This document shows, one piece after another, positions 5,650-9,844 of a stretch of 26,620 nt of DNA. The stretch's first letter is position 1, and the number at the start of each line of letters is the position of its first letter. The translations under genes were made by a program, and so were the position numbers. Under the pieces are notes generated by a model. The model searched no databases. It was not told the origin of the DNA and was given only the letters and a program-made list of their open reading frames with translations. The stretch is from IMG/VR virus record IMGVR_UViG_3300027759_000368, positions 1 to 26,620 of that record, one strand, 5' to 3'. This DNA is from a virus.

Positions 5650-5809
5650 TTTTGGTTGGATACCTCTGATGATACGAATCTTCGATATTCTCTCCGAAGA
5701 AATCGATATCAAGTTCGTTGAATTCCTTGACAAGGCGATAGCCAAAATAGGAAAGGATTCCTACGACTGCGATGCCAGCAACTCCAGCTACGATCTTTTT
5801 ATTATCCAT
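5636..5809 (-). CDS. Small membrane-anchored protein (57 aa)
   Basis: A short frame from the ATG at 5809, overlapping the peroxiredoxin stop by eight bases. The product begins MDNKKIVAGVAGIAVVGILS and has one membrane helix (about residues 6-25), then an acidic, Tyr/Phe-rich tail ending YPTKNGNE. The Shine-Dalgarno is weak (GAAAG), as expected for a coupled gene. I do not recognise a family. Overlap on both sides and the clean membrane helix support it as real. Confidence 0.6.
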   Translation of the reverse strand: MDNKKIVAGVAGIAVVGILSYFGYRLVKEFNELDIDFFGENIEDSYHQRYPTKNGNE

Positions 5810-6398
5810 TTTCTTTCAACCAGTTTAAGATGTTTTCTGGAGAAGTCTCACCGTATGGATCTTCTCCGGCATTGTCTTCCATGCCAGGTTCGATGAACCA
5901 TTTGAGGATCTTGCCATTCTCGACGATACATGCATAACGCCATGAACGTTCACCGAAACCAAGATTGTCCTTGGCGACACTCATCTTCATCTTATGAGTA
6001 AACTTGGCAGATCCGTCAGGAATCATCTTCACCTTCTTGATCTTCTGCTGCTTAGCCCAGCAATTCATTACAAAAGCATCGTTGACCGATATACAGAGAA
6101 TGTCGTCGATACCAAGTTCCTTGAATGCCTTGAAGTTTTCTTCGAAGCCAGGAAGTTGATATGTCGAGCAGGTCGGAGTGAATGCTCCAGGCAATGAGAA
6201 GAGAACTACACGCTTCTTAGCAAAGTAGTCGAACGAAGTCTTATCTTCCCAGCGATATGGGTTAGGATGCTTCAATAAAGTCATCTCGTCATCGCGTACG
6301 CGAGTCTTAAATACGACGTTAGGAACAATTTCAGGAAGTTCCTGAGTGTTATCATCATACTTGTTCCATGAACGTTTAACCGAAATTGTTTCTACCAT
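5802..6398 (-). CDS. Peroxiredoxin (Prx5/AhpE-like)
   Basis: A 198-residue protein with the peroxiredoxin active site FSLPGAFTPTCSTYQLPGF: the PxxxTxxC motif with the peroxidatic cysteine near residue 78. Downstream, ISVNDAFVMNCWAKQ carries a second Cys, and RSWRYACIVENGKI matches the late conserved Arg region of Prx5-type enzymes. These reduce hydrogen peroxide and organic peroxides using thiols. The N-terminus (about 60 residues before the active-site strand) is longer than usual. Its role in a phage would be to limit oxidative damage during infection; that part is inference. Confidence 0.88.
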   Translation of the reverse strand: MVETISVKRSWNKYDDNTQELPEIVPNVVFKTRVRDDEMTLLKHPNPYRWEDKTSFDYFAKKRVVLFSLPGAFTPTCSTYQLPGFEENFKAFKELGIDDILCISVNDAFVMNCWAKQQKIKKVKMIPDGSAKFTHKMKMSVAKDNLGFGERSWRYACIVENGKILKWFIEPGMEDNAGEDPYGETSPENILNWLKENG

Positions 6399-6407
6399 AA
6401 TTATTCC

Positions 6408-6557
6408 TTACCAATGATGGATTGCATTTGCAATCAGAAAAATGTTTGCTATGACGGATTGAACAATAATCAACGTCCGGATCCAAGCGACCTTATCAGA
6501 TTCGCGATCACAGGAAGATGCTTTTTCACCTAAGGCTTTTGCCCAAATACGCCACAT
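6408..6557 (-). CDS. Conserved small marine-phage membrane protein (49 aa)
   Basis: I place the start at the ATG at 6557 because GGAG lies six bases before it; an upstream ATG at 6569 has no ribosome site. The product begins MWRIWAKALGEKASSCDRES, has one membrane helix (about residues 25-45) and ends NAIHHW. I remember very similar short proteins starting MWRIWAKALGEK in marine T4-like phages; no function is known. It is the first gene after the structured RNA region. Confidence 0.75.
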   Translation of the reverse strand: MWRIWAKALGEKASSCDRESDKVAWIRTLIIVQSVIANIFLIANAIHHW

Positions 6558-6585
6558 AACTAACTCCATGAATAAAAGCGAAGTG

Positions 6586-6866
6586 GGAGGATTCAGTTGT
6601 ACCTCCATGACCCAGTCAATTACTATCTGTAATCTCAGCCAACGACTCGTTCCTGGTTAAGAGGAGTACCACTCCCCGAGTCTACCTTATCCCCACTGAC
6701 GAGGGGATTATTCAGTCACACTTCTTACAGCCTCCGTCGAGGCTGATATACGATGAATGTAATGGCTACTGAGGTGTCGTCTCGCTACAGACGGTAATTT
6801 CGCTCTTTACGTTCCTATCCTCCCCCAATCGCTTGGTCGCCACAGGAACTTCCATTACATTCAAAC
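6586..6866 (-). ncRNA. Structured RNA region 1, downstream of tRNA-Asn
   Basis: About 280 bases with no convincing reading frame but unusually many perfect inverted repeats. A 12-bp helix (6852-6863 with 6754-6765) closes a domain holding four hairpins: 6844-6849/6811-6816, with 6833-6836/6825-6828 inside it capped by a GCGA tetraloop; 6807-6810/6794-6797; and 6789-6793/6778-6782. Then come 6739-6745/6728-6734 (7 bp), 6703-6708/6689-6694, 6677-6682/6644-6649 enclosing 6671-6675/6663-6667, and 6602-6606/6586-6590. The 12-bp helix overlaps the encoded CCA of the tRNA by no base. It is probably a structured RNA made with the tRNA transcript. I do not recognise a known family. Confidence 0.6.
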
Positions 6867-6941
6867 TGGCTCCCTAAGAAGGATTCGAACCTCCGACCAA
6901 TTGATTAACAGTCAACTGCGCTACCGCTGCGCCATTAGGGA
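6867..6941 (-). tRNA. tRNA-Asn(GTT)
   Basis: Cloverleaf with TCCCTAA/TTAGGGA acceptor, GTTAATC in the anticodon arm (anticodon GTT), a GTTCGAATC T-loop and encoded CCA. It is the last tRNA of the cluster. Confidence 0.92.
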
Positions 6942-7810: not shown

Positions 7811-7947
7811 GAGTGGCTTCCTAAGTGTGCCTTGATACATTACGTCCGGACGCTGTATCTTCCCAGATAGTTAGTTACTTTTCGAACAGTAACGCTATCA
7901 CTTTCGCTATGTGGTTACCCACGGGGTTCAGCAAAGGAAGCCTAGAT
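7811..7947 (-). ncRNA. Structured RNA region 2 between tRNA-Ala and tRNA-Phe
   Basis: A 137-base gap with no credible gene, closed by a perfect 8-bp helix (7935-7942 with 7815-7822). Inside are 7919-7922/7911-7914 (loop of four), a long interrupted stem 7895-7899/7866-7870 continuing into 7888-7893/7874-7879, and 7854-7859/7834-7839 around a CGTCCGGACG palindrome. This is a compact multi-arm fold that could be a small RNA released by tRNA processing. No known family recognised. Confidence 0.55.
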
Positions 7948-8450: not shown

Positions 8451-8457
8451 TTACAAA

Positions 8458-8542
8458 TGGTGGGCCAGTGAGGTATCGATCCTCCCCCGCGAACGGATCA
8501 GATTTACAGTCTGACTGCCGGAGCCACCGGCTTTACCGACCC
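8458..8542 (-). tRNA. tRNA-Tyr(GTA)
   Basis: 85-base class II tRNA with a long variable arm, anticodon loop CTGTAAA (anticodon GTA), acceptor GGGTCGG/CTGGCCC, CCA encoded. Confidence 0.92.
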
Positions 8543-8673
8543 ATGAATAGCTCCGGACACTTTCGCAGTCCGGCATCGGTTAGCTATTTAACGGTCTCTC
8601 ATTAAGTGCTGCAGCATGAGAGAGAATCATTCACTAACACCCTAGTCTGTTTCAACCGTAAAGGGCGCGTTTA
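8543..8673 (-). ncRNA. Structured RNA region 3 between tRNA-Lys(CTT) and tRNA-Tyr
   Basis: A 131-base gap with two stacked domains. One is 8655-8659/8591-8595 enclosing the 8-bp hairpin 8616-8623/8595-8602 (TCTCTCAT with ATGAGAGA; base 8595 can belong to only one of the two helices). The other is 8582-8588/8546-8552 (7 bp) enclosing 8568-8573/8553-8558 (CCGGAC with GTCCGG). No open frame of note. The pairing is too regular for spacer, and I do not recognise a family. Confidence 0.55.
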
Positions 8674-9575: not shown

Positions 9576-9651
9576 TGGGGTGATCGACGGGTATCGAGCC
9601 CGCAACTCCGGATTCACAATCCAGCATGTATCCATTAACACCTCGACCACC
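9576..9651 (-). tRNA. tRNA-His(GTG)
   Basis: Anticodon loop TTGTGAA (anticodon GTG), acceptor GTGGTCG/CGATCAC, with the extra G-1 facing C73 that marks histidine tRNA. CCA encoded. Confidence 0.92.
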
Positions 9652-9844
9652 ATAAACTGTCATCAGACCCCGCCGATTGCACGGCACCTCACGACACCTG
9701 CATACGCACATACCGTCTGATATTGCCCTAGTATTACCCTCAACTCGAAGTGGAACAGTCCCCGCTGCTTTGTATTACTGTTTGCTCGATGGGGTTACAT
9801 GAGGTCGGCCTCATCTCTTTTCTATGCAAACAAACCACATAATT
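9652..9844 (-). ncRNA. Structured RNA region 4 between tRNA-Ser(GCT) and tRNA-His
   Basis: A 193-base gap. Helix 9826-9831/9780-9785 encloses the hairpin 9809-9814/9799-9804 (6 bp, CCGA loop). Helix 9777-9782/9754-9759 partly competes with the first. A 7-bp helix 9715-9721/9662-9668 closes a GC-rich domain just before tRNA-His. A 60-residue open frame crosses this gap and tRNA-His and is not credible. It may be another structured RNA from the tRNA transcript. Confidence 0.5.

Follow-up and report, generated by a model that had tools for sequence, protein, structure and literature searches.

What is encoded by the gene-free stretch that directly follows tRNA-Asn in this phage tRNA array? The window, i.e. 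the whole 26,620 nt of DNA that was analyzed, is a phage fragment with T4-type replication genes (a clamp-loader lid domain, a DNA polymerase processivity factor and an SbcC-like protein) and a minus-strand array of 24 tRNA genes called by ARAGORN. The original prediction placed one structured RNA of about 280 bases, perhaps a new class of phage non-coding RNA, at positions 6586-6866. A gene-free, structured stretch does occur directly after tRNA-Asn at about these coordinates, and the predicted helices are present. The extent was about right, although the structure continues 10 nt past the predicted end, to position 6576. The stretch is, however, not a single RNA but two separable RNAs, which lie side by side 9 nt apart. 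One is manA (RF01745), a known RNA that covers 6744-6586 of the predicted stretch and accounts for a little under 60% of it; only the other, a ~110-nt RNA that we call U, is a new family.

On the minus strand the order is tRNA-Asn, U, manA, a 49-aa gene and a peroxiredoxin gene. The tRNA-Asn gene (GTT; 6867-6941, minus strand; found by ARAGORN and by Rfam RF00005 with 69.8 bits) encodes its CCA and is the final tRNA of the array before U. The spacer between them is 3 nt (GTT); the inverted repeats start 3 nt past the CCA (6867) and extend to 6576 on the minus strand. The 49-aa gene (6408-6557, minus strand) has a translation that matches phrog_1679, of unknown function (PHROGs, E = 7.9e-20), and begins 18-19 nt 3' of manA. 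Its start is likely at 6557, after a GGAG at 6567-6564; the mechanically called open reading frame (6408-6608) runs into the end of manA solely when the first ATG is taken as the start. The peroxiredoxin-like gene (5802-6398, minus strand; phrog_2281, Pfam Redoxin) served as bait for syntenic relatives.

The transcribed strand of the region is the minus strand, because the strand of tRNA-Asn, the Rfam match to manA and the bias in wobble pairs all agree; in the case of U there are 63 G.U cells versus 9 A.C cells in the alignment. When all 281 nt are folded together, the energy beats that of shuffled sequences only modestly on this strand (z = -1.80; 11 of 200 shuffles were as good), and the value for the plus strand is z = -2.52. 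U alone gave z = -3.74, with 1 of 200 shuffles as good. It is covariation in homologs, not folding energy, that proves the structure.

The RNA at 6576-6744 (minus strand) is a short variant of manA. A cmscan search of Rfam 15 matched it across the full RF01745 model (positions 1-192) with 67.3 bits and E = 2.4e-15, which passes the curated gathering cutoff of 55.2 bits. The conserved core (GUGACUGAAUAA ... UAAGGU ... GGUA...AAUCC) and the closing pseudoknot are present, while part of model positions ~83-101, a variable hairpin region, is missing. We compared 12 manA members of this phage group using Rfam's structure. Compensatory changes occur at 15 of 46 pairs. The pseudoknot, in which the 3' strand CACUU (6581-6585, minus strand) pairs with AAGUG (6723-6719), is paired in all 12 members, with a compensatory change at two of its five pairs. 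The projected pairs 43-50 and 109-132 and a small hairpin at 83-94 are not formed in the short variant in these 12 members.

U itself (6754-6863, minus strand) is a four-way-junction RNA. The perfect 12-bp helix of the original prediction is its closing helix P1, in which the 5' strand (6852-6863) pairs with the 3' strand (6765-6754); both sides change at 11 of these 12 pairs. The multi-hairpin junction was also correctly foreseen. Its first arm (6811-6849) consists of P2 (6849-6842 with 6818-6811), in which 100% of the cells are paired, two pairs covary and a G.U wobble at 6843/6817 is kept in 31 of 31 sequences, and of the capping helix P2a (6825-6836; 6836-6833 with 6828-6825), which carries the predicted GCGA tetraloop at 6832-6829. 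P3 (GUAA/UUAC; 6794-6810) presents a nearly invariant loop, AGAGCGAAA. P4 (6778-6793), with the conserved loop GUAGCG, shows the strongest covariation, including all six standard pair types at one pair. The joining strand J4/1 (6766-6777) contains the conserved unpaired sequence ACACCUCAGUAG and forms nearly invariant columns of the alignment. All of these elements are on the minus strand. P2a and P3 rest on conservation and not on covariation.

The exact core of U was found in 42 IMG/VR stretches. Two further homologs have a one-base change in the core, which brings the number to at least 44 contigs. Three differently built patterns returned nearly the same IMG/VR set, and a looser pattern gave no further members in viral contigs. 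Searches with blastn at E up to 1 gave no match in INPHARED or PLSDB, and the exact core pattern had none in GTDB genomes. In Rfam 15 the predicted stretch matched manA at 6744-6586, but for 6866-6745 there was no same-strand family up to E = 5 with the window sequence or E = 10 with the homolog L213.

The covariation analysis was based on an alignment of 31 distinct homologs. RNAalifold recovers the junction, with changes on both sides at 12 of 25 pairs. In the structure as drawn, 94.1% of the cells are paired and changes on both sides occur at 16 of 33 pairs. The number of compensatory cells is 115, compared with 38.7 ± 5.8 in shuffles and at most 28 in controls with a slid structure; when the drawn structure was slid by 1-3 columns the pairing dropped to 35-46%. 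On a tree, parsimony gave about 38 compensatory double changes, up to nine of them at one P4 pair. The family is tight: the model R1 gives the window 144.9 bits and the homologs score 121-146 bits, except one at 90, so most are closely related and some of the changes are inherited jointly. A search for tertiary pairs by mutual information returned the drawn pairs as its top signals, and the remainder contained no convincing extra helix. The covariation that the original prediction called for is thus positive for the U part, and the structure strongly supports U as a genuine RNA family that was not described before.

We also examined where U is placed. All 13 U-bearing records that were searched whole contain one copy, and all flanking tRNAs that were found share its strand. 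In many loci U lies 3 nt past tRNA-Asn or tRNA-Met; in others it lies 18-172 nt past tRNA-Trp, Leu, Lys, Thr or Asp. On its other side it can be 4-15 nt ahead of tRNA-Ile, Met or Thr, with other tRNAs at a greater distance. The neighbors vary: there are seven upstream tRNAs, and downstream there are about ten different tRNAs, manA or ORFs. The gap of 9 nt between U and manA in the window is similar in L039, L131, L205, L210 and L240. In L122 and L128 an outer-membrane-barrel-like gene separates the two RNAs (it had no PHROGs match, and the label is our reading of the sequence). L123, L125 and L126 have manA without U, at most of the other loci with U there is no neighboring manA, and in L241 both are present about 6 kb apart. 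U and manA were gained, lost or separated independently among relatives.

One 109-kb U-bearing record encodes a major capsid protein of the T4 type (gp23; 469 bits). A different picture emerges from the 54-kb record of L236, in which U scores 122 bits. No tRNA gene was found in this record, its GC content is 58-61% versus 42-44% in the tRNA-rich loci, and its structural genes differ (terminase, portal phrog_1216 and major head protein phrog_371). Here U (L250, 2527-2650) lies in a gap that has leftward genes on one side and the terminase genes, which point rightward, on the other; the gene ahead of the terminase large subunit begins about 58-70 nt past U. Because this tRNA-free phage contig has U before its terminase genes, U is a transferable unit; it has crossed between unrelated phages, and tRNA neighbors are not needed.

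Taken from the sequences, the most plausible role of U is that of a small RNA that is co-transcribed with the tRNA array, cut out of it and probably acts in trans; we regard this as probable but far from certain. The whole array would be transcribed as one precursor, since the tightly spaced tRNAs appear, from their geometry, to leave no room for a promoter or terminator. Maturation of the upstream tRNA would cut this precursor after the CCA, and in relatives RNase P, by generating the 5' end of the tRNA that follows, would free the 3' side of U. The released molecule would be a stable, compact RNA of four helices and would persist. Its action would then be in trans, and the most likely mode is contact with a protein or RNA partner through its near-invariant single-stranded parts, namely the loop AGAGCGAAA, the loop GUAGCG and the joining strand ACACCUCAGUAG. 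We infer the trans action from these conserved unpaired parts, from the single copy per phage and from the shifting neighbors; processing and stability are likewise inferred.

An alternative that we consider unlikely is that U has no independent life and acts in cis within the tRNA operon, as a processing signal, spacer or shield that promotes cutting or protection of the tRNA precursor. Its tight setting among same-strand tRNAs, the lack of room for a promoter and the length of the closing helix P1 are all consistent with such a role. However, there is one U per record even though the arrays hold 20 or more tRNAs, many related arrays have none, and both its position and the adjoining tRNAs vary. 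Furthermore, U occurs in the phage whose 54-kb contig had no tRNA genes, and a spacer needs no near-invariant loops.

We give a smaller chance again to U as a leader that regulates the next gene, be it the outer-membrane-barrel-like gene, the terminase genes or the 49-aa gene. An ORF does follow 55 nt past U in L122 and L128, and the distance before the terminase region in L250 is similar. A leader role is possible at L236 and some other loci, where U is 55-58 nt upstream of an ORF. Many loci, though, have a tRNA 4-15 nt past U, or manA, with no ORF between, and the genes downstream of U are mutually unrelated.

That U and manA form one large composite RNA is suggested by the short gap between them in the window and five relatives, but this is very improbable and is largely refuted by their separability: most loci have U or manA alone or, as in L241, kilobases apart, and a whole gene splits them in L122 and L128. 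The independent gain, loss and separation of the two is why we reject a single 280-nt RNA. By analogy with phi29 pRNA, U might aid DNA packaging, since one phage has it directly before its terminase genes, but this is scarcely credible: it is a single case, the other phages keep U in tRNA arrays, and no need for an RNA is known in T4-type packaging.

Two other identities were rejected. An alignment of U with the 3' end of 16S rRNA, which it might mimic via a conserved CACCUC, was no better than with shuffles (p about 0.35-0.4). We likewise rejected a mobile element bounded by terminal inverted repeats: in the P1 arms it is the pairing that is kept, through covarying changes, and not the sequence.

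U is not the only such element among these tRNAs. Between tRNA-Ala and tRNA-Phe lies a structured, undescribed element, V (7811-7947, minus strand; 15 distinct homologs), with changes on both sides at 11 of 28 consensus pairs and only 9 of 443 cells broken. The non-coding gap at 9651-9844 (minus strand) contains two blocks that are separately conserved in relatives and are likely two more RNA modules; other gaps of the array are also conserved. At about 8457-8543 (minus strand) there is a tRNA-Tyr look-alike with a GTA anticodon, a long variable arm and a CCA. It is conserved in many relatives, and was reported neither by ARAGORN nor by Rfam at the gathering cutoff. In L122, L125 and L126 the site past tRNA-Asn is occupied by other structured or tRNA-like elements. 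TRNA-like elements beside U or manA (L122, 4924-5000; L125, 406-488; L128, 5555-5640; L126, 5590-5677) have ends like an acceptor and T arm and odd loops, and are not called as tRNAs.

It is possible, if somewhat doubtful, that the tRNA arrays are racks of swappable small RNAs used in trans, and that manA is here trans-acting and not a cis-regulator. U, V, manA, GOLLD and the tRNA-like elements would be exchanged among the tRNA genes; tRNA processing would free these modules, which would then function in trans in the course of infection. Element V, the conserved gaps and the swapped elements after tRNA-Asn support this idea but do not prove it.

The surroundings of manA bear on the same question. 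This RNA was described as almost exclusively marine, as occurring in T4-like cyanophages, as lying commonly in potential 5' UTRs and as a riboswitch candidate (Weinberg et al. 2010, PMC2864571); it can also adjoin tRNAs (pMP7017 paper, PMC10832533). In the window manA is followed by the 49-aa gene, which starts 18-19 nt on. Among manA loci gathered with a core pattern, several have a same-strand tRNA 3-17 nt past manA with no intervening gene. This tRNA is Asn in L007, L033, L052 and L092, Gly in L022 and L086, Pro in L049 and Ala in L210; the same arrangement occurs in L205, L051 and L126, and the distance is 10-13 nt in L126, L205 and L210. In L018, L064 and L121 the tRNA begins about 50 nt past manA, and ARAGORN found no nearby tRNA at most other manA loci. 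Three matches of the core pattern (L119, L002 and L090) are without the manA 3' end and are due to chance or divergence. In many classic manA loci (L017, L024, L058, L078 and others) a conserved terminator-like hairpin, GACCUAAGAUGCAACUC...GAGUCGGGCAGAUGGUC, and a T run come just after the RNA, as if manA ended the transcript. The cis-regulatory label suits some loci and not others; it is doubtful in the several relatives in which a tRNA comes next with no gene between. If the arrays are indeed racks of trans-acting RNAs, manA would contradict its present cis-regulatory classification in these phages.

How do the two RNAs compare with known systems? The manA at 6744-6576 agrees with RF01745 in its full-model score over the cutoff, its GUGACUGAAUAA core and its pseudoknot (PMC2864571; PMC7779021), but the window copy is short and in its clade manA is a module of tRNA arrays. 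U is a small, well-supported family with no named relative, for which the likely ends and the conserved loops are now defined. GOLLD (RF02032) and ROOL, to which the original prediction likened the stretch, are also structured phage RNAs of unknown function near tRNA islands (PMC12286853), but they are several times larger than U, and neither U nor the window matched their models. GOLLD is absent from the window, but relatives have it in tRNA arrays alongside U or manA (L126, 3568-4039; L215, 10818-11280; L211, 1962-2428), where it contains a tRNA. The T4 RNAs rnaC and rnaD were ruled out as homologs: the alignments with U had p values of 0.56 and 0.98, and the U model showed no similarity to them with filters off. 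These two stable RNAs, species 1 and 2, have no known function. Like U they are small (139 and 119 nt), and they lie last in a T4-type tRNA cluster, encoded on its strand (NC_000866). U reopens an old question: what role is played by the additional stable RNAs that T4-type tRNA clusters encode?
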